Shown piece by piece: positions 1,584 to 18,118 of a stretch of 45,737 nucleotides of DNA (position 1 is its first letter; the number at the start of each line of letters is the position of its first letter). The notes below the pieces were generated by a model, which was not told the DNA's origin, did no database searches, and was given only the letters and a program-made list of their open reading frames with translations. Position numbers and translations under genes: made by a program. Origin of the DNA: a virus; IMG/VR virus record IMGVR_UViG_3300029922_000118, positions 1 through 45,737 of that record; one strand, written 5' to 3'.

Positions 1584-1856
1584 ATGGCAACCCCAAACTC
1601 TATTCCAGGAATGCCGGAGAATCGAAGGCATGGAAGACCTCTTCAGAGATTTCTAAAGAAAAAGGATAAGTCTTATAGAATAGACAAAGCCCAAAAAAAG
1701 AAGTTTTATAAAGAGAATATTCTCCGTAGGTCTTATTCCTACGGAGAGTTCTTTATTTCACAAGGGAATCACGTGCATCCTTCTTATGTAGAGCTATATG
1801 CTCTAACCGAAGAAGAATACGAACAAGTTCTAGCAGAGAGGAAAGAGATTATATAA
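1584..1856 (+). CDS. Small basic protein, 90 aa
   Basis: No family recognised. The first half is strongly basic (FLKKKDKSYRIDKAQKKK near residues 23-40) and the C-terminus acidic (EEEYEQVLAERKE), a charge split typical of small nucleic-acid- or protein-binding factors. The ATG follows CAGGAG. Its stop overlaps the start of the FtsK-like gene (TAATG), so the two are translationally coupled, which suggests they may act together. Confidence 0.65.
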   Translation: MATPNSIPGMPENRRHGRPLQRFLKKKDKSYRIDKAQKKKFYKENILRRSYSYGEFFISQGNHVHPSYVELYALTEEEYEQVLAERKEII

Positions 1857-3013
1857 TGACACAAGAGAAAAATCTTTTCGAAGCTGCTTCTGAGACAGAA
1901 AAAACCAGAGCCATGCTAGTCCTTAAACTAGGTGGCCTCGGCATAAAAGCCGCGTTCTCAAAAGTTGAAGAAGGGCCAATAGTAACGACTTATTATTATA
2001 GACTAGCTCATGATTTTCCTATCGCTAGGATTCTTAAAGCCGAGGAAGATGTAGCCCTCGGCTGTGGAGTTGATTCAGTCCTTATCTCAAGAGAAGGAGG
2101 TGAAATTGCAATTGCAATCCCTAATAAACATAAAACCACAGTCTCTTTCGACTCTTGCTTGCATTCTTTATTCACTGAGCCTAAGTATTCTAGCTTTAAG
2201 CTCCCTATTATTCTTGGAGTTAACACTCGTGGAAATCCAGCAGTTTTGGATTTATGGGATGCGCCTCATATTCTCATAGCTGGGAGTACAGGAGCTGGGA
2301 AGAGTGTTCTCCTTAATTCTATAATCGCTGGTCTAGCCTGTAAGAATAGCCACAGAGATATGAAGTTAATTCTAGTAGATACTAAGCAACTAGACCTTAC
2401 TTTATTCTCTGACCTCCCTCACACAGTAGAGATGGTTGATACTGTGGATAGATTCCATGCTACCTTTGATCGTCTTATGGCTATTGTGAGACAAAGAAAA
2501 GCACAGCTTAAGGGAGTGGCTAGGAATGTAGCTGAGTATAACAGCCAGATGAAAGCTATGGGAGGTTCTACACTTCCTTATTATGTTGTTATAATTGATG
2601 AGCTAGCAGATGTTATTGCTGAAGATGCTTCAAGAGCTAAGACAGATTCAGAGATAAAGTTCTTCGCTAGAGTTCCGGCTAGAATCAAGAACCTTATTCA
2701 AGTATGCCGTGCTCTTGGAATTCACGTCATAGCTGCTACTCAAAGAAGCTCGGTAAAGATTATAGACGGAGATATTAAAGCTAATCTCCCAACTCGAATC
2801 GCGCTTAGACTTCCTTCAGTCCATGATTCTATGACGATCTTAAATACAGGAGGAGCAGAGAATCTTTTAGGCCAGGGAGATATGCTTTTACAGTCGCAAA
2901 ACAGTGCAAATCTCCAACGTTATCATGGGCCTTATATAGACCTAGACCACATCGCTAATGTCTTAGTTAATTGTGATTCTATTAGAGACTCATATGCTTC
3001 TATGAACTTCTAA
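1856..3013 (+). CDS. FtsK/SpoIIIE-like DNA translocase
   Basis: The 385 residues match the FtsK motor core. Residues 28-135 resemble the region before the motor, with GPIVTTYYYRLA at 40-51 where FtsK proteins have a GP-V-T-YE motif. The RecA-like motor follows: Walker A GSTGAGKS at 143-150, Walker B YVVIIDEL at 243-250, ATQR at 294-297, then the family signature IKANLPTRIA at 307-316 and NLLGQGDML at 336-344. FtsK pumps double-stranded DNA as a hexamer. The N-terminal membrane part and the C-terminal winged-helix gamma domain of cellular FtsK are missing. This is unusual in a phage that also has its own TerL. Its function here is unknown: DNA partition, host interference or exclusion are possible. 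Confidence 0.88.
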   Translation: MTQEKNLFEAASETEKTRAMLVLKLGGLGIKAAFSKVEEGPIVTTYYYRLAHDFPIARILKAEEDVALGCGVDSVLISREGGEIAIAIPNKHKTTVSFDSCLHSLFTEPKYSSFKLPIILGVNTRGNPAVLDLWDAPHILIAGSTGAGKSVLLNSIIAGLACKNSHRDMKLILVDTKQLDLTLFSDLPHTVEMVDTVDRFHATFDRLMAIVRQRKAQLKGVARNVAEYNSQMKAMGGSTLPYYVVIIDELADVIAEDASRAKTDSEIKFFARVPARIKNLIQVCRALGIHVIAATQRSSVKIIDGDIKANLPTRIALRLPSVHDSMTILNTGGAENLLGQGDMLLQSQNSANLQRYHGPYIDLDHIANVLVNCDSIRDSYASMNF

Positions 3014-7325: not shown

Positions 7326-7445
7326 ATGGCTATTGAGACTTCAGATATATGTGAATACTGCGGCATGCCTTTGGATGGGTGTATTTGCACTGATTTTGAC
7401 GAAGATGATGAAGACGAAGACGAGGATGCAGAAGAGGATATCTAA
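7326..7445 (+). CDS. Mini zinc-ribbon with acidic tail, 39 aa
   Basis: The start is ATG 7326 behind AAAGGAG; a longer in-frame reading would run back across the terminator. Residues 8-20 hold CEYC and CIC, a probable single zinc site. The last 17 residues are almost all Asp and Glu, a DNA-mimic-like or charge-repelling tail. Its stop overlaps the start of the UDG/exonuclease gene (TAATG), so the two are made together. No family is recognised. An interaction with the polymerase complex is a guess from coupling. Confidence 0.6.
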   Translation: MAIETSDICEYCGMPLDGCICTDFDEDDEDEDEDAEEDI

Positions 7446-8545
7446 TGGCTTTTATTCAAAACAAAGGTAATCCATCTTCAAAAGTATGGGTCATAGTCAA
7501 TGAACCTCTAAGCGGGGATAAGGATAAAGGCTTTCTTTATTCTGCCCCGCTTGGCTGGGTTTTTGACAAGATGATGAAAGAGGCTGGGATTCCTGATTAT
7601 TATGTCTTTTCTCGAAGAACTGATCCTGAGAATGGGGCAGCTTATAGAGATACTCTAGGAGAGCTTAATAAACATCAGCCTCCGATTATTATAGCTCTTG
7701 GTAACGCCAGCGCATACCTCTGTGATGAGCTTATTCCTAAGAGAAAAGGCCCAAAATATAATCCCGATAAGGATTCTGAGATATCAAAGTATGCTGGTTC
7801 TTTGCTTCAGTGTAAACAACTACCATATCCCCATTATGTAATCCCTACATATGAGCCTATGGATATAGTAAGACAGTGGAAGCAACGTGATATTGTTATC
7901 AATTGTGATCTTGGCAAGGCCGCCACAGAGCTTGAGTACCTTAAGATTAATGGAGTCCTTCAACCTTTACCAAAGAGAACTCCTAAAATAGACTTTGAAT
8001 CCTTTGATGAGCTTCTCTCTTTACTTGAGAGTTTTAAAAACTATCCCTACGTGAGTAACGACATTGAGACAATTTATCCAAAGACGGGTTCTATCTTTAA
8101 AAAGATTCATCCAGGATATCCTATTACGATTGGTCTTGCGCCCAGTAAAGAATTTGGCATTTCTTTTGATCTATTTAGAGAAGATAATACAGAAACTATC
8201 AAACTCTGGAGAACCTTGAATTCCTTGTTATCTACTGTACCATCAGTCGGACAGAACTTCTTCAATTTTGACTCGTCGTTTTATGAAGCCTTAGGATTTA
8301 CTATTCCCCTAGCCCTCTGTCGAGACACGATGATCCAACATCATCTCCTTTGGCCAGAGTTACCTCATAAATTACAATTCTTAGCTCGCCAATATACTAG
8401 GGAGCCCTTTTGGAAAGATGAAGGTGCTGGGTGGACTATAAAGAACATGCGTGGGATGAAGATTTACAACTGCAAAGACGTTATGGTTACTATGGAAATC
8501 TTTGAAGAACAACAGAAGGAATTTAAAGACCGAGGAATATTATGA
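7445..8545 (+). CDS. DNA polymerase part 1: UDG-like plus 3'-5' exonuclease
   Basis: 366 residues. Residues 1-165 resemble the uracil-DNA-glycosylase-like domain fused to some phage family A polymerases (VIVNEPLSG near 17, PPIIIALGNASAYL near 79-92). Residues 185-366 form a DEDD exonuclease: SNDIET gives D206 and E208; VGQNFFNFD gives D276; CRDTMIQHHLL at 292-302 is the PolA-exonuclease hallmark; YNCKD gives Y341 and D345. All four acidic ligands are present, so proofreading should be active. The polymerase domain is absent and is encoded separately at 9696. It overlaps the next gene by four bases (ATGA). Confidence 0.85.
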   Translation: MAFIQNKGNPSSKVWVIVNEPLSGDKDKGFLYSAPLGWVFDKMMKEAGIPDYYVFSRRTDPENGAAYRDTLGELNKHQPPIIIALGNASAYLCDELIPKRKGPKYNPDKDSEISKYAGSLLQCKQLPYPHYVIPTYEPMDIVRQWKQRDIVINCDLGKAATELEYLKINGVLQPLPKRTPKIDFESFDELLSLLESFKNYPYVSNDIETIYPKTGSIFKKIHPGYPITIGLAPSKEFGISFDLFREDNTETIKLWRTLNSLLSTVPSVGQNFFNFDSSFYEALGFTIPLALCRDTMIQHHLLWPELPHKLQFLARQYTREPFWKDEGAGWTIKNMRGMKIYNCKDVMVTMEIFEEQQKEFKDRGIL

Positions 8546-9695: not shown

Positions 9696-11216
9696 ATGGA
9701 ACCTAACAAAATATCAAACGAGTATCTTCATAGGCTACAGGCTGTGTATCACGAGATTTCTAAGAGAGGAATCCTTGTATCTCCTGAGCGAATAGCCAAA
9801 GCACAAAAAATAGTGGCAGAAGATATAGAGAAACAACTGGCTATAGCCTCTAAAAGCTGGGGATGCCGGTGTTATCTCGGAGGCGCTAATGCTAATAAGG
9901 CTGATAAGACAGAAGTAAATCTTAATGCCTCTAGCGGCTCTCGAACGCCTTTAGCTAGACTTAAAGAACTAGGCTATACTATACCAAAGATCGGAGTCCG
10001 TGATGAAGATGGGAATTATGTATCTAAAGAATCTCTGGCAGAACTCACACTACAAAAGATGTATGCTGCCAATCAATTTGGCGTCTCTGGTGGTGAGCCT
10101 TCTTTGCGTGCTCTCTTACGCATTAGGGAGCTTTCAACCATTGACTCTCGTTATCTTAGGGCTAATTTTTATAATCGGAATGGCCAGCTTCTTTTCCTCT
10201 CTAACTATAATGTTGCTGGGACTGTAACTGGAAGAAGAGCTTCTAGGAAACATATCTTTGGATATGGGAATAATGCACAAAACTTTCCAAAGCATGGAGT
10301 CTTAGCATCTTTATTCCGTTCTTGTCTCATAGCCCGGCCAGGAAAAATATTCCTCTCTGTAGACCAAATGCAGGCTGAAGATTGGCCGGTCTCAGCTTTA
10401 GCGAATAATACTGAAGCTCTTAAAGACCTTGAGCATGGAGTAGACCGACATACAAAACTAGCCTCTATGATCTTTAACATCCCTATAGAATCTCGAACCG
10501 AAAAGGAGTGGAAGGATTCAATTGAAAGATACCTCGGAAAGAAAACTCGTCACGCTAATAACTACGGAATGCGTGCTAATACCATGTCCGATACCTTGGC
10601 AAAAGAAGGCCATGCTGTTAGTGCAGAGGCTTGTAAGCAGATTCTTACTCGTGTTAATCAAATTGACCCCAGTGTGGATTCTGTGTTCCATGAATATGTG
10701 CGGCAATGCTTGTACAAAGACCGCACTCTCACGACACCCTTTGGAAGATCCAGAATCTTTCTTGGGTTAAGAGCGGGAGATGCTGGTGGGAATAATAAGA
10801 TTTTTAACGAGGCTTATTCTTATATTCCACAGTCTACAGTGGGAGATAATACAGCTTTAGCACTATATGAGCTTGAAACAAAGTATCCTGATTCCTTCAT
10901 AACCCATGAATGCCACGATAGCATTATGGAGGAAATAGATGATTCCTTAGATACTATATGGGAACATGTGCAGAGAATAAGAGATTCTTTTAAAAGAACT
11001 ATAACATTTCATAATGGTTTATCTGTAGATATTCCTGTAGAGGCGGAGTTAAGTTTTAACTTTAATGACTCTACAGGGATAAAATCAAAACTCAAAGGAA
11101 CTAAAAAACTCGACGACGTTACATATCAAGATGTCTCAGATTCTTATCACCGTCTTAAAGAAGAAGCAGAGAAAAAAGAGCAAGAGGGTTCTATAAATGC
11201 CAAGGCTGCTGAATAA
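9696..11216 (+). CDS. polA: DNA polymerase part 2: family A polymerase domain
   Basis: 506 residues containing palm, fingers and thumb only. TGRRASRKH near 179 corresponds to the PolA TGR motif. Motif A is SVDQMQAE, with catalytic D223 and E228. Motif B R278-YLG-K282 ... NYG gives the spacing R-x3-K-x7-YG of Pol I, with His at the position of Pol I Phe762. Motif C is CHDS with H407-D408, Ser replacing the usual Glu. The residues for catalysis are present. The exonuclease is on a separate protein at 7445, three genes upstream, so the holoenzyme must assemble from two chains. GAGG precedes the ATG. Confidence 0.9.
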   Translation: MEPNKISNEYLHRLQAVYHEISKRGILVSPERIAKAQKIVAEDIEKQLAIASKSWGCRCYLGGANANKADKTEVNLNASSGSRTPLARLKELGYTIPKIGVRDEDGNYVSKESLAELTLQKMYAANQFGVSGGEPSLRALLRIRELSTIDSRYLRANFYNRNGQLLFLSNYNVAGTVTGRRASRKHIFGYGNNAQNFPKHGVLASLFRSCLIARPGKIFLSVDQMQAEDWPVSALANNTEALKDLEHGVDRHTKLASMIFNIPIESRTEKEWKDSIERYLGKKTRHANNYGMRANTMSDTLAKEGHAVSAEACKQILTRVNQIDPSVDSVFHEYVRQCLYKDRTLTTPFGRSRIFLGLRAGDAGGNNKIFNEAYSYIPQSTVGDNTALALYELETKYPDSFITHECHDSIMEEIDDSLDTIWEHVQRIRDSFKRTITFHNGLSVDIPVEAELSFNFNDSTGIKSKLKGTKKLDDVTYQDVSDSYHRLKEEAEKKEQEGSINAKAAE

Positions 11217-12468
11217 AAATTGGATCACAGCATATGCCGAGGCCATAGCTCCAGTAACAGAGGCTCCTGAAGCATTCGTGATATGGAGTGCTATCTCGGT
11301 TATATCTAGTGTTCTTAAAAAGAAAGTGTGGATAAAACGTGGGACATATAAAGTCTATCCTAATCAATACATTGTACTGGTTGGCCCTCCCGGAGTGGGC
11401 AAGGGAACTGCAATACATCCGGCACATTCTTTTCTCAAAGAATCAAAGCCCCCACTTACAAACTATATCTCTGACAGAGTTACCGCGCCTAAGATAATTG
11501 AGAAGTTACACACAGGCTTCGCGACTGTAGCAGCTTCAGGCGGGACTATAGTTCAAGGGATGGAGTCTTCATGTACTCTTATGAGTACAGAGCTTCCTAC
11601 TCTTCTAACTTCTTCCGACTGGATGCTTCAATTCCTCTGCGATGCTTGGGATAGAAATGAGTTTGAATATGATACACGTAATAAGGGAACTTTCATCATC
11701 AAAGATATGTGTGTGTCTCTTATTGGTGCTTGTGTTCCTGAGTACATACGTAGACTCAATAAAGATGCGACTTCCGCTATCAGTGGCGGCTTTACTGCTA
11801 GGACTATCTTTGTTTTTGCTGGAAATAAATCTAAGTCTCTCGCTTGGCCTACTGCTCTTGAAGACTCTGCTAAAGGACTAGAGCTTAAAAATAAGCTGAC
11901 TCAAGATATTAAAGCAATCGCTCGTCTAAACGGTGAATTTACTTTTACCCAAGACGCAGCATATAGATGGGAGATGTTTTACAACACCATAAAACAATCA
12001 GATGATGATTCTGATGTAGTAATGGCCTTCAAAGCTCGACAAGGTGTTCATGTAATGAAGGTCGCTATGTGTCTAAGCGCGGCTGGGAGTGACAGTCTCA
12101 CGATAGGATTATGGGAACTTCAAACTGCAATTGGGCTTGTGGCATCTGTTCTCTCCACTCTCGACGTAACCTTTAGAGGTGTGGGAGAAAGTCCTCTAGC
12201 TGAAGCGACGGCAAGGATTCAAAGCATCATAGAGAAAAAAGGAATTATCTCTCGCGGTGAGCTGCTTAAAATGACTCACCGTCATGTTACGCCAGAGGAT
12301 TTGGATAGGATTATGAGAGTCCTAGAATCTATCGACTTCTGTAAATCCTACACCCAACAAGGTCGTCTTTACTATGAACATAAAAATCCAGCTTTAAAAA
12401 CTAAGATCAAACCGAAAGGAATAAATATCAATGTCGGAACTAGAGCAGCCAACGGAGTCAATCCATAG
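11197..12468 (+). CDS. DUF3987-like replicative helicase/primase-type ATPase
   Basis: 423 residues. After an N-terminal helical part typical of DUF3987 (APEAFVIWSAISVISSVL near 24-41), the Walker A GPPGVGKGT lies at 63-71. An acidic, aromatic WDRNEFEYDT segment and conserved SLIGACVPEYIRR follow. The last 80 residues look like a winged-helix module (ISRGELLKMTHRHV). Such proteins are phage and plasmid helicases thought to work at the replication fork. No separate primase was seen. It overlaps the polymerase gene by 20 bases and is preceded by GAGGG. Confidence 0.75.
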   Translation: MPRLLNKNWITAYAEAIAPVTEAPEAFVIWSAISVISSVLKKKVWIKRGTYKVYPNQYIVLVGPPGVGKGTAIHPAHSFLKESKPPLTNYISDRVTAPKIIEKLHTGFATVAASGGTIVQGMESSCTLMSTELPTLLTSSDWMLQFLCDAWDRNEFEYDTRNKGTFIIKDMCVSLIGACVPEYIRRLNKDATSAISGGFTARTIFVFAGNKSKSLAWPTALEDSAKGLELKNKLTQDIKAIARLNGEFTFTQDAAYRWEMFYNTIKQSDDDSDVVMAFKARQGVHVMKVAMCLSAAGSDSLTIGLWELQTAIGLVASVLSTLDVTFRGVGESPLAEATARIQSIIEKKGIISRGELLKMTHRHVTPEDLDRIMRVLESIDFCKSYTQQGRLYYEHKNPALKTKIKPKGININVGTRAANGVNP

Positions 12469-13039
12469 TCTTAGTTTCATTGCTAAGAAACAAGATGGTG
12501 ATATAGCAACTCAGAAAGAATCAAACACAGTCTTCATAGTCCAAGGAAAAATAGCTCTTGAAGCGGTCGAAGATAAGATTCTAGTCCTTCTTGATAAGTT
12601 TAAGAGTGGCTATGAATGTAAGACCTGCAATGAGACAGGAGTCCTAGAAACTTGTCCATGTATCAACACAGACCATGAGAGTTATAAATATAAAGGATCT
12701 CCCATCCCATGCAGTTACTGCGGCGGAGAACCTTCGCTCTTTACAAAAAGAACCTGCCCAGACTGCAAAGGAGAGGGCACAACTCTCATAATCCCTGAAA
12801 CATCTAAGGGGATTCCCACATCAGGAGTGATATGTTCTGTGGGACCGCTGTGCAAAACAAGACACATAGGAGAGAGAGTAATCTTCGGCCCTCATGTAGG
12901 CTATTATCTTCCCTTCAAAGGCAATGTTCGTATCCGAGTCATGAGAGAATTTGAGCCTATGTGTAAGATTCATGCCCTTGATAATAACCTAGCTCTTGGT
13001 GATTTTATGGCCTTCGAAGAGCCACAGAGGAATGATTAA
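12431..13039 (+). CDS. GroES-like co-chaperonin with inserted DnaJ-type zinc finger
   Basis: 202 residues. A Cpn10 fold is visible in two pieces. The first strand is ALEAVEDKILVLLDKF (42-57, compare PLHDRVIVK of GroES). After an insertion the fold resumes with TTLIIPETSKGIPTSGV (117-133), where LII takes the place of the GroEL-binding IVL, then IGERVIFGPHVGYYLP and a last strand MREFEPMCKIHA. The insert (61-116) holds four Cys pairs, C63/C66, C75/C77, C94/C97 and C109/C112, two in the DnaJ style (CSYCGG, CPDCKGEG). It therefore sits in the mobile loop arm that contacts GroEL. It probably acts with host GroEL on phage proteins. AAGGA precedes the ATG; overlap with the helicase is 38 bases. Confidence 0.82.
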   Translation: MSELEQPTESIHSLSFIAKKQDGDIATQKESNTVFIVQGKIALEAVEDKILVLLDKFKSGYECKTCNETGVLETCPCINTDHESYKYKGSPIPCSYCGGEPSLFTKRTCPDCKGEGTTLIIPETSKGIPTSGVICSVGPLCKTRHIGERVIFGPHVGYYLPFKGNVRIRVMREFEPMCKIHALDNNLALGDFMAFEEPQRND

Positions 13040-13345: not shown

Positions 13346-16042
13346 CTATGGTTTGCATGAGTAATTCACGGTCACCGTAGCCGTTGCAGGATTTACGCCA
13401 ACCGTAATGTTCATCCCCGTCGCGGTCGCTACATCGTTGCCGATGCCGAGGAACCCAGTGCCGCCGTTCATCGTCGCGGTGCAGACGTAGGCGGTCGTTG
13501 TTGTCGGCCAGACCAGCGTAAGGAAGTTACCCGTCGTGAATGTGCCTCCCGCTACCGAGTAGGAGCCGCGAAGATTGGTGCAGGTAGCCGTCAGGCAGGT
13601 AACCGTTCCCGTTCCAGATCCTCCTGTTGCTGAGGTAATGGGGAATCCATAACTTTCGGGAATGGCGCTAGATCCTACGGTTGTCCAGTAGTTTCCACCA
13701 GCACTCGCAGAGACCAACGTTGATCGCAGGCCGAGACACGTCACGGGCGGAACAATTATCGATGTAGTTCCTGATGCGTTAATGTACTCTCCGCTGGCCG
13801 CTGTTATTGTCAAAGAGTTAGTTCCGGTAGTGCTTACATTGCACGCATAGACAATGCGATTCGTGTACCCAATAGACGTGTACAAGGTGTACGTGATGTT
13901 GTTCGACCCAGTGTTAAACTGCTTACACCCATCCACATCCGCTGCCGTATATGTGCTCGCTGTGATTATCGTCGGATCGCAGTTCGCGTAGTTGCTTCCA
14001 AAAAACATATTCTCCGCGTGCGTCCGCAGATTTCCAACCAACGTGTATCCGGTTGGCGTTAGATGGGTTCCATCGGACTGAAAATATGTAAGATTTGAGT
14101 ATGCCCCATCCGCTCCGAGAACCGGGAGTGCCGCCGGATCGACCAACATGCTAATGTTTGACCCTGGTACTCCAGCATTTTGCGCTCTAAGGTACGTATT
14201 GAGTGCGTTCTTGTTGGTGTCTTGCCCTGTTCGGCTAATCATCGTGCTAAGAAATACCGCAGCCTTGTATGACTGTTTAGTTACGTGAGAAGCCCACTGC
14301 GACAAGTAGTTGTACGTGTTTGCCGGAGTTAAGCTGGCAACTGAAACATCATTTGTTCCCGCCCATAGCTGAAGAACGTTTTTCACTGCGTTATTACTGA
14401 ATACGGCATCTTCTCTAGCCTGGGGGAAGGCCCTCATATTAGAAGCAAGCTGCCCGGAAAGTCCGTAAATCGAAGTTTGGTATGTATCGTTTGAGGCTGT
14501 GAGATTTGAGGCAGCGCATGGGCTAATAGCAAGTCCGGTAGGAGTGCCAAACGTAAGCGAGTCACCTACGCACACTCTCTGATTAACGGTAGATAGAGAT
14601 GGCCTTACCGTTGTAGCTACACCCCGCTGACTAAGCACTCCAGAAATAGCCGCATAGTTTTGAGCAGCCTGTTGCTGCGTCAACTCCGTCGTATAAAACA
14701 AGGCATACAGTATGATGGGGGACCATGCACTAAGTCCCGCATTGATGGCGCACCCATATCCAGTTTGGTAGGTGTCAGTGACAAACAAGCTCGACGATGC
14801 CCCGGATGGGCTGAACGATACAGGTAGACCGTCAAGATACGCCGTGTCTGCCGTTGCGTCCAGGTTGTAAACAAGAAAGTGTGTTCCGGCCAATGGAGTA
14901 ACAATGATTGAATTTGCGGTATAAGACCACAAAAACGGTATCCCGATAGCCGCCCCATCCTGGTTGAGTATGCCAGAAGATCCAATGAGTTGTAGGTGAG
15001 CAGAATTCCCGGTAGCGCAGAAAAACGCCGGATATCCCACAGGGTCACTTCCAACATTAACCGCTGGAGGTGGGTCAGCGTAGAAGATCTGTACGGACTT
15101 AACTGTAGTGGCAATAGCGGAAGGCCAGATGATGTACTGGGAACTCCCGCTGAGAGGTAATCCACCACCAGATATTGTTGCCGACGCGTGCAGCGTTGCG
15201 TTGTTTCCATTACCCGACGTGTCCGGCAAAGTTGTACCCGAAGCATCCACCATCTGATATTGCGCGTAGAGATTGGCTGTTACGATGCCTGCCTTTAAGG
15301 CACTATCTACGTATAGCGTAGTAGCCAGCTTTCCGCTTCCATCCAACGCTGTCTGCGTTGTTGCTGTAGTCCCGTTCGGAAGTGCTGGAGTACCGCTTAG
15401 ATTTGCTGCGGTGCCTGTCGTGTTGGCGGCGTTGTTAGGAATATCAGCACTGACCAGCGCACGAAACGTAGGCGCATTTACTCCACCCGACACCGGCCCA
15501 GCAAGTACGGTATTTGCGATCTGATTTTTTATCGTGGCCGTAACCGTGCCCGAGTTAGTTACCGCAGTGCTCGGAGTAGACGAGTCAACTACCCCATCGC
15601 CTGTAAAGGTGACAGAAGTGACCGTTCCAGATCCAGATGGGCATACGCCATTTGATGCCGTGCAAAATTCTGATCCGTTGTACTGCGCCTTCCCCCCACC
15701 ACTTGTAATCACATTAAGGTCAGTCGCTCCGGGCTGCGTAACCGTCTGGCTGGTAGTAGGGGAAGTCTGCACATAGGCACTTGAATTAGTTATGAACGGT
15801 GCCGTATTCGTGCAGTTCACATTCCCCGTAGTGGGCGAGCAGTTCACGCCGGAGGAGCCTGTGATGGAAGATACCCCAGCTACAAAATTAGCCCATGAAG
15901 TAACTCCGTAGACAGTAGACAATACTTGACCGTTAGCACCCGGGCGAATTTGTGAAGGATTAAAAGTCTGACCTCGCATAAGGCCGCTAAGACTTGCAAG
16001 GATGCTTAAAAGCATAAAAGACCTAAGCAAATAGAAACGCAT
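13346..16042 (-). CDS. Tail fibre/spike with LamG-like and SGNH esterase domains
   Basis: 898 residues. The N-terminus has signal-peptide character: a basic start, a hydrophobic core FMLLSILASLSGLM, then a polar stretch. Residues about 25-255 are low-complexity Thr/Ser/Val/Gly-rich repeats such as GTVTSVTFTGDGVV. Residues about 260-470 look like a laminin-G-type lectin fold (DTSGNGNNATLHA). An SGNH hydrolase follows: VGDSLTFG with S495, AGTND with N564, SDGTHLTP with D657 and H660. The C-terminus is a beta-rich tail. It probably binds and deacetylates host surface glycans. Its DNA is visibly more GC-rich than adjacent genes. AGGAGA precedes the ATG. Confidence 0.85.
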   Translation of the reverse strand: MRFYLLRSFMLLSILASLSGLMRGQTFNPSQIRPGANGQVLSTVYGVTSWANFVAGVSSITGSSGVNCSPTTGNVNCTNTAPFITNSSAYVQTSPTTSQTVTQPGATDLNVITSGGGKAQYNGSEFCTASNGVCPSGSGTVTSVTFTGDGVVDSSTPSTAVTNSGTVTATIKNQIANTVLAGPVSGGVNAPTFRALVSADIPNNAANTTGTAANLSGTPALPNGTTATTQTALDGSGKLATTLYVDSALKAGIVTANLYAQYQMVDASGTTLPDTSGNGNNATLHASATISGGGLPLSGSSQYIIWPSAIATTVKSVQIFYADPPPAVNVGSDPVGYPAFFCATGNSAHLQLIGSSGILNQDGAAIGIPFLWSYTANSIIVTPLAGTHFLVYNLDATADTAYLDGLPVSFSPSGASSSLFVTDTYQTGYGCAINAGLSAWSPIILYALFYTTELTQQQAAQNYAAISGVLSQRGVATTVRPSLSTVNQRVCVGDSLTFGTPTGLAISPCAASNLTASNDTYQTSIYGLSGQLASNMRAFPQAREDAVFSNNAVKNVLQLWAGTNDVSVASLTPANTYNYLSQWASHVTKQSYKAAVFLSTMISRTGQDTNKNALNTYLRAQNAGVPGSNISMLVDPAALPVLGADGAYSNLTYFQSDGTHLTPTGYTLVGNLRTHAENMFFGSNYANCDPTIITASTYTAADVDGCKQFNTGSNNITYTLYTSIGYTNRIVYACNVSTTGTNSLTITAASGEYINASGTTSIIVPPVTCLGLRSTLVSASAGGNYWTTVGSSAIPESYGFPITSATGGSGTGTVTCLTATCTNLRGSYSVAGGTFTTGNFLTLVWPTTTTAYVCTATMNGGTGFLGIGNDVATATGMNITVGVNPATATVTVNYSCKP

Positions 16043-16841
16043 ATAAAATATCTCCTGTCACGGTAGTAAAATCGGTGGTTATTGTTGTTCCAACTAAAGT
16101 ATAATCTGTCCGAAGCTGCCCATTGTAGAAAAGCATCATTGTAGAAGGAGTAAAAGGAATTGTAAAAGTATTAGCATTATCCACAGGCTGTCCTGCGAAA
16201 GGCCATTTAGTTATAGTAACACTAGATGCTAGAGTAGCTGTCGCTGCATTACCAGAGGTATTGTTAGTAATGTCCCCAACGCCATTAACATCTGCAGCTA
16301 AAAGTGTAATAGCCCCTGTTCGAGTATTGAACGAAGTTACTGCTGCCCCAGAATTTGATTCTACAATAGCCCAATTAGTACCATCCCAGAACATGAGTTG
16401 GTTGGTCGTGGTATTGTAGACTAAGGCACCCTGATTCAAGGGAAGGATAGTCTCAGCAGTAGGATTATAGCTCAATGGCACTGGTGTTGCCGCTATCTGT
16501 GTTGAGAATACATTCTGAGCTATTTGAAAATTTAAAGTCATCATACTACCTGTTACAGTAGCAGAGAAAACAGAAGCTGGCATTGTGGCATTTGGACTTA
16601 TGATAAAAGTCCATTGGCTACCAGAAGGAGAGATAGTGTTATTATCTGGAAGAACTATACTAAACTGACCTAGTGTATTTGCTTGCACAGCTATTTGGAT
16701 AGTTGTTAAAGCGCCACCCAGCCAAATAACATTTTGAGAGGCATTAGGATTGGGACGAAAAATAGCTAAGATAGTGGCCTTAGACCATATCTGTCCTAGA
16801 TTATCTACAACAGTTCCAGTAACTGTGGTTGTGTATGGCAT
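16023..16841 (-). CDS. Tail fibre / minor tail protein
   Basis: 272 residues, beta-rich. The first part (TVTGTVVDNLGQIWSKATI) is a carboxypeptidase-regulatory-like sandwich pattern. The middle has NQLMFWDGTNWA, and AVTSFNTRTGAITL is a motif common in phage tail fibres before collagen-like or adhesin modules. The C-terminus (MLFYNGQLRTDYTLVGTTI) resembles fibre tip domains. It begins by one-base overlap with the ATP-grasp stop and overlaps the SGNH fibre start by 20 bases. It probably links the fibre to the tail. Confidence 0.72.
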   Translation of the reverse strand: MPYTTTVTGTVVDNLGQIWSKATILAIFRPNPNASQNVIWLGGALTTIQIAVQANTLGQFSIVLPDNNTISPSGSQWTFIISPNATMPASVFSATVTGSMMTLNFQIAQNVFSTQIAATPVPLSYNPTAETILPLNQGALVYNTTTNQLMFWDGTNWAIVESNSGAAVTSFNTRTGAITLLAADVNGVGDITNNTSGNAATATLASSVTITKWPFAGQPVDNANTFTIPFTPSTMMLFYNGQLRTDYTLVGTTITTDFTTVTGDILYAFLFA

Positions 16842-18118
16842 TAGCGTAGCAACCCCATTCTTTCTATTTCGTTATAACGTTTGGTTGTGCATTTCTCAAT
16901 ATCGGTTCTGATTTGCATGTTAGGGATATGGATGTTCTCTATCTTAGAATCACATCTTGCAAAGGCTTCACCAATGCTATTCCCGCCACCCATAGGAACC
17001 GCGATAAAACCTGAGTAGCCAGCGGTAACAAGACTATCTTTTTTATCAAGCATCACATCATAAAGATAGCATTCATCTAGATCATCAGGTTCTATTCCTT
17101 TAACCGGAACTCCTGAAGGATGCTTGCCTTTGAACTCCGAGGGATATGGGGGAATAGAGAGCCTTATTCCAGCAGCGAATTCATGTTTCCAAGAGATGTC
17201 TGGGACTTGGCCAGTGGCTATTTTATATAGCATCTCCCCATAATTACCACCATAGCAGAGCATTTCTGCCGCACTGGAATCATAACCGAATCGAGGAGTC
17301 CACTCAAGTCCCCACAGACCTTGATCGTTAGCTATGGTATTAAGATCAATCATACCAGTATACTGGATACTTTTTAAATATTTTGTTAACTTTTTAAGTC
17401 CTTGTTTATATAACTCAGAACCCTCATTAAGAGGAAAGATCAGATTCCCGGCGCAGCCAGTATTAGGGCCATTTCCCTCATTCATAAATTTCTTTTCTTC
17501 CAAAGTTACTAGAGGCAAATAAAAATCAAAGCCATTAAAAAAAGCATTGACACTGACTTCGGTTCCTTTAATAACTTCTTGTAGGATGAATGGAGCACCC
17601 TTAGTAAGTGCATTCACCTTCTCAAGATACTCTAACATATCTTCTGCACTAGAAGAGACATAAGTAGTCTCGCAATCTTGCTCCTGCCCACCATCTGGTT
17701 TATAAACATATCTTTTACCAGTCTTCTTTATAAAAGATCTAGCACTTGATACTTCAGTGAATCTCTCATAAGGAGGAACTTGAACTCCAGCCTCTTCCAT
17801 TACTTCTATACCAAAGTTCCTATCATCTTCCGCGGCACAGTTAAAAGCCCCGTCTCCTAGAGTAGGGCAGTATTGAGCAGAATACTCTGCCTGTTTCTCT
17901 CTCCCCGTTAGATCAAAAAGAGAAAGATCATACTTCTTATACGGAGGAAAAGGATCTCCCTTAGCCTTAACTAAGGGAGGAGGGATTATACCGCCTAGGA
18001 TGTTAGCATATTCAGGGTTCTCAAGATAAATATCTACCTTATGACCCTCAGAGAGTAATCTCTCGCAGAGCCAGCCCCCATACATACTATAAGTTGACAT
18101 TGCAATCTTCAGCGGCAT
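16841..18118 (-). CDS. PurD-like ATP-grasp enzyme
   Basis: 425 residues. The N-terminal Rossmann-like part (KIAMSTYSMYGGWLCERLL) resembles the PurD N domain. The ATP-grasp core shows KRYVYKPDGG (135-144), the hinge FILQEVIKGTEVSVNAFFNG (178-197 region), GPNTGCAG (217-224, compare the GPNTGGMG signature of PurD), and GLEWTPRFG (270-278) with the metal-binding Glu. These enzymes couple ATP to amide or peptide-like bond formation; PurD joins glycine to phosphoribosylamine. Context is tail and ejection genes, not purine synthesis, so modification of a virion or surface component is possible. GGGAG precedes the ATG. Confidence 0.78.
   Translation of the reverse strand: MPLKIAMSTYSMYGGWLCERLLSEGHKVDIYLENPEYANILGGIIPPPLVKAKGDPFPPYKKYDLSLFDLTGREKQAEYSAQYCPTLGDGAFNCAAEDDRNFGIEVMEEAGVQVPPYERFTEVSSARSFIKKTGKRYVYKPDGGQEQDCETTYVSSSAEDMLEYLEKVNALTKGAPFILQEVIKGTEVSVNAFFNGFDFYLPLVTLEEKKFMNEGNGPNTGCAGNLIFPLNEGSELYKQGLKKLTKYLKSIQYTGMIDLNTIANDQGLWGLEWTPRFGYDSSAAEMLCYGGNYGEMLYKIATGQVPDISWKHEFAAGIRLSIPPYPSEFKGKHPSGVPVKGIEPDDLDECYLYDVMLDKKDSLVTAGYSGFIAVPMGGGNSIGEAFARCDSKIENIHIPNMQIRTDIEKCTTKRYNEIERMGLLR

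Follow-up and report, generated by a model that had tools for sequence, protein, structure and literature searches.

A phage Cpn10-like protein whose mobile loop carries a conserved domain that probably binds zinc

In GroES, the mobile loop acts as the switch that lets the lid find GroEL and leave it again, and a conserved folded domain within this loop would show a tolerance far beyond a change of length. A stretch of viral DNA of 45,737 nucleotides (IMG/VR record IMGVR_UViG_3300029922_000118; hereafter, the window) contains an open reading frame of 202 amino acids at 12431..13039 (features are on the + strand unless given otherwise), which an earlier reading of the sequence, here called the original prediction, took to encode a co-chaperonin whose Cpn10 fold is split by a DnaJ-type zinc finger. 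The locus raises the question of whether a Cpn10 lid can carry such a domain in its mobile loop. The coordinates of the reading frame and the peptides quoted in the prediction were all exact.

Conservation and genomic setting of the gene

The reading frame at 12431..13039 is a real, conserved gene: Its homologues on ten viral contigs, found in one conserved gene order, place it beyond chance. Metagenomic phages, to which the original prediction looked for relatives, did contain them, and three queries to IMG/VR, with the protein, the family alignment, and the C-terminal half alone, returned the same ten contigs, which encode seven distinct proteins with 45 to 55% identity to the window protein. 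No family member free of the insert was found among the IMG/VR matches to the Cpn10-like C-terminal half. In a genome collection, neither the co-chaperonin-like protein nor polA as a query gave relatives; named phages gave none beyond one weak match to ordinary GroES, and the comparison with PHROGs yielded no useful match.

In all ten loci, the gene order is Sak4, a small gene, UDG/exonuclease, polA, DUF3987, and the co-chaperonin-like gene. The two conserved neighbors, a family A DNA polymerase (polA, 9696..11216) and a DUF3987 protein (11197..12468), were assigned by Pfam matches and synteny, and the latter gene overlaps the start of the gene under study. This position suggests expression together with the replication genes, and it leaves room for roles other than that of a lid. 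No GroEL and no second Cpn10 were found within the window, and a lid made by this phage would therefore depend on the GroEL of its host.

More distant phages that share the polA–DUF3987 pair (loci L043, L045, L046, L047, and L048) have unrelated small proteins after DUF3987 and before convergent genes, and the slot is a variable one. The genes following DUF3987 in Desulfofustis phage, Mel-JY34, vir526, ctLwi270, and VS-ABTNL-3 were considered as insert-free ancestors and rejected, as they encode unrelated proteins. Other genes of the window deserve mention in their own right. A protein encoded at 7445-8545 (+), kept in all ten relatives, joins a part resembling uracil-DNA glycosylase (UDG; residues 7-147) to a PolA-type 3'-5' exonuclease part (residues 189-359), and the polymerase at 9696-11216 matches the polymerase domain only; PolA is thus split, with its exonuclease joined to a UDG-like domain. 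A translocase of the FtsK/SpoIIIE type with an FtsK alpha domain (3.3e-30), unusual in a phage of this size, is encoded at 1856-3013 (+). On the opposite strand lie a long protein, probably of the tail or a fiber, with a stretch resembling GDSL/SGNH hydrolases (13346-16042, -) and, among the late genes, a phosphoribosylglycinamide synthetase-type ATP-grasp protein (16841-18118, -), which is 64 to 68% identical in the relatives and exceeds most of their other genes in this respect.

Cpn10 assignment on the two sides of the insert

Comparisons with profiles support the Cpn10 fold that the original prediction had proposed. All eight family members matched Pfam Cpn10 (PF00166; best value 1.2e-4) and the NCBIfam GroES models (best value 5.3e-6), with matches present outside the insert. 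Alone, the window protein reached only 0.1 and 13.1 bits against Pfam Cpn10, below the curated cut-off of 21.1 bits, and standard annotation would therefore miss it; that split Cpn10s drop below such cut-offs is a warning. The Cpn10 strands that follow the mobile loop occupy residues 118-181 (12782..12973). With hhalign, residues 117-202 matched ordinary Cpn10s at a probability of 97.4% and the protein with the insert removed at 97.3%; the latter scored approximately 62, in comparison with at most 27 in 300 column shuffles, among which the probability did not exceed 45.7%. When the family profile was compared with PDB, the first eight of the nine matches were co-chaperonins, the best of them chloroplast Cpn20 (7ekq). 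A phmmer search of PDB with the single sequence returned Pizza design proteins for the most part, which we set aside as an artifact of repeats. The computed profile comparisons show that the part after the insert belongs to Cpn10 (GroES).

The stretch before the insert, LEAVEDKILVLLDKF (residues 42-57, 12554..12601), falls at the position of GroES strand 1. It was placed opposite IRPLHDRVIVKRKE by hhalign after removal of the insert and, across the gap, in three MAFFT regimes, and excision of the insert widened the Pfam Cpn10 match to profile positions 3-84. As an independent sequence match to Cpn10, the strand was not significant: ALEAVEDKILVLLDKF brought a small gain in score, and 9 to 40% of the shuffled N-terminal parts scored equally well. 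By sequence, its identity with GroES strand 1 is thus consistent but not proven, and we place it there because of the consistent position in the alignments and the structure model.

The model came from AF2. Given the eight family rows alone, the program produced no usable fold (pLDDT 41), and after the addition of 30 rows of ordinary viral Cpn10s the mean pLDDT was 75.7, with 92 on the pre-insert strand (residues 42-51) and 87 to 95 on the C-terminal part. In the latter monomer model, the pre-insert strand joins a Cpn10-like barrel, and the flanks are predicted to form one barrel, as originally proposed; since Cpn10 rows were in the alignment, the model counts as support and not as an independent test. 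In Foldseek searches, it matched the Cpn10 of Mycobacterium tuberculosis and T4 gp31 at a probability of 1.00 over approximately 150 columns, a length that necessarily spans the insert, with gp31 (1g31) the third-best match among solved structures, and it also matched viral co-chaperonins in BFVD. Outside the barrel, the protein has an N-terminal extension (residues 1-38, 12431..12544), which shows little conservation in the family alignment up to residue 31, and a C-terminal tail past the end of GroES (residues 182-202, 12974..13036), which carries a conserved motif of the LGDF type and is modeled at a pLDDT mostly near 53.

The cysteine-rich insert and the triplet that follows it

The insert (residues 58-117, 12602..12781) lies, as had been claimed, in an arm of the mobile loop, and this arm is the N-terminal one. 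Counted from the Asp conserved in strand 1 (D9 in GroES, D48 here) to the start of the hydrophobic triplet (I25 and L119, respectively), GroES has 16 residues and the window protein 71, and the net gain of approximately 55 residues falls entirely within this arm, directly before the triplet. The alignments also bear out the placement of LII (residues 119-121, 12785..12793) at the site of the GroEL-binding IVL of GroES. Across the family the triplet reads LII, IIM, LAL, LKI, LVL, or LIV, the middle residue being Lys or Ala in two members, and Pro follows it in all eight; the resulting pattern [LI]-x-[ILMV]-P matches the IVIP or IVLP of ordinary Cpn10s. The family has a shorter roof hairpin than GroES, a trait also seen in a few of the ordinary viral Cpn10s (L110 and L117).

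The four Cys pairs of the prediction were all present, and every member has exactly eight cysteines in the insert. Pair 1 (C63-x2-C66, 12617..12628), pair 2 (C75-x-C77, 12653..12661), and pair 4 (C109-x2-C112, 12755..12766) are invariant. In pair 3 (C94-x2-C97, 12710..12721), C94 is invariant and its partner is shifted: The spacing is C-x2-C in the window protein, L012, L015, and L016 and C-x5-C in four relatives (L014:8001-8564, L018:7923-8507, L019:7998-8567, and L020:7926-8504), and a ligand of the second metal site thus seems to have moved within the family. The insert also changes fast, its dN being about twice that of the C-terminal part or more in comparisons with the window protein; synonymous changes were saturated in most pairs, and hence no dN/dS ratios are given for the parts of the protein.

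Whether this domain is of the DnaJ type, as first described, received a mixed answer. Pfam DnaJ_CXXCXGXG (PF00684) matched seven of the eight members (best value 1.1e-3), with the window protein itself below the cut-off, and NCBIfam DnaJ matched five (best value 7.3e-4). The insert scored 30.1, at a probability of 76.5%, in a comparison with DnaJ domains taken from eight sources, and the maximum among 150 shuffles with the cysteines held fixed was 25.5; more than the cysteine spacing is therefore shared. For the poor family-only model, BSD2 and the DnaJ zinc domain made up structural matches 1, 2, and 5, all of them low in probability. On the other side, the four CXXCXGXG motifs are lacking, pair 4 being the only complete one in most members, and the best profile alignment with DnaJ was out of register by one motif; zinc fingers of the FmdE and anti-TRAP types also scored against the insert. 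The DnaJ-type label is supported in part; we call the insert DnaJ-like and not DnaJ, and the domain probably binds zinc.

The prediction had also named phage replacements of GroES but none known to be built in this way, and what we found agrees with it. No insert occurred among 31 nonredundant ordinary viral Cpn10s, a sample that was gathered with ordinary Cpn10 queries and is thereby biased against odd ones, and we found no paper on a Cpn10 with such an insert in a literature search that covered subscription journals only in small part. The structural matches in BFVD include longer co-chaperonins, such as A0A8S5S075 (200 aa) and A0A8S5RQD3 (174 aa), and these could hold inserts too.

Possible functions and comparison with known systems

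The protein is, in our view, a genuine split Cpn10 whose mobile loop houses a conserved domain that probably binds zinc, and it is likely to function as a co-chaperonin. On balance, we favor the reading that it is a phage co-chaperonin of the Cpn10 type in which the mobile loop has its N-terminal arm replaced by a small domain with four Cys pairs. It would form a seven-membered lid, the [LI]-x-[ILMV]-P triplet would bind host GroEL as IVL does in GroES, and the inserted domain, most likely with two zinc ions, would be present seven times next to the site of GroEL contact. There it would most likely serve as a folded module for docking or holding and alter the way in which the lid engages the apical domains and the client that enters. 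If it is produced along with the polymerase and the DUF3987 protein, such a lid may allow phage proteins to be folded in a phage-modified cage. Against this reading, two members have Lys or Ala in the middle of the triplet; moreover, flexibility of the unbound mobile loop is important in GroES, and a folded insert could impair it. If the favored reading holds, the insert is a naturally occurring tool for studying what governs lid affinity and the entry of clients, and it points to a group of phages that seem to have rebuilt the lid instead of bringing a cage of their own.

A more specific form of this proposal, with seven DnaJ-like fingers along the lid rim that capture phage proteins and pass them into the GroEL cage on closure, is rather unlikely; if true, a single protein would both capture clients and encapsulate them. 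We consider it unlikely that the Cpn10 fold has been repurposed and that the protein is not a chaperonin lid but a zinc-bearing accessory of the adjacent replication genes. The overlap with DUF3987 and the position after polA, constant across the ten loci, fit such a role, as do the fast change of the insert and the unrelated small proteins that fill the same slot in more distant phages. However, the GroEL-binding triplet, its Pro, and the following stretch are among the best-kept Cpn10-like features, which a repurposed fold need not keep, and a co-chaperonin adjoins the DNA polymerase in other phages too (Flavobacterium phage immuto). Less probable still is a decoy that attaches to the GroEL of the host, or joins the host's GroES rings, and so blocks or redirects the folding machine of the host instead of aiding the folding of phage proteins. 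It would account for the retention of triplet and barrel beside a heavily altered loop, and for a window without a phage GroEL, but the barrel surface is strongly conserved throughout, which, together with the fixed place by the replication genes, looks more like housekeeping, and no sequence feature specific to inhibition was seen. That the protein is not a Cpn10 but a relative of the GroES-like domain found in zinc alcohol dehydrogenases (PF08240), which is also cysteine-bearing, is highly improbable: ADH_N matched four of the eight members (best value 0.028) and dehydrogenases appear lower in the Foldseek list, but Cpn10/GroES models scored far better in every member, Cpn10s stood above dehydrogenases in each search, and the 202 residues hold no Rossmann domain.

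The phage co-chaperonin favored here shares with Cpn10/GroES (PF00166) the barrel strands after the mobile loop, the hydrophobic triplet with its Pro, and likely strand 1, and differs from it in the addition of approximately 55 residues, with eight Cys, to the arm of the mobile loop, an N-terminal extension, a C-terminal tail, and a shortened roof hairpin. Chloroplast Cpn20/Cpn23 (7ekq) is likewise an enlarged Cpn10, but its enlargement consists of two joined Cpn10 units, without a domain in the mobile loop. T4 gp31 (1g31) is also a phage-made Cpn10 fold with very low sequence identity and an enlarged mobile loop, of 22 residues in comparison with 16 in GroES (PMC6318259), although that loop holds no folded domain; gp31 replaces GroES at 14% identity and is required for the phage capsid protein (PMC6318259). 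With the DnaJ cysteine-rich domain (PF00684), the insert has in common four Cys pairs within approximately 50 residues, a last pair of the form CXXCXGXG, and weak profile matches, whereas its pairs 1 to 3 read CXXCXXTG or CXXCXGTG, CXC, and CXXC or CX5C, and a J-domain is absent. BSD2 and ZnJ2 likewise use a DnaJ-like zinc domain apart from DnaJ, as stand-alone plastid proteins outside any chaperonin lid, and ZnJ2, a DnaJ-type zinc domain without a J-domain, holds unfolded clients (PMC5818400). In view of the precedents of gp31 and ZnJ2, it is reasonable to suggest by analogy that the insert may hold clients or serve in docking.
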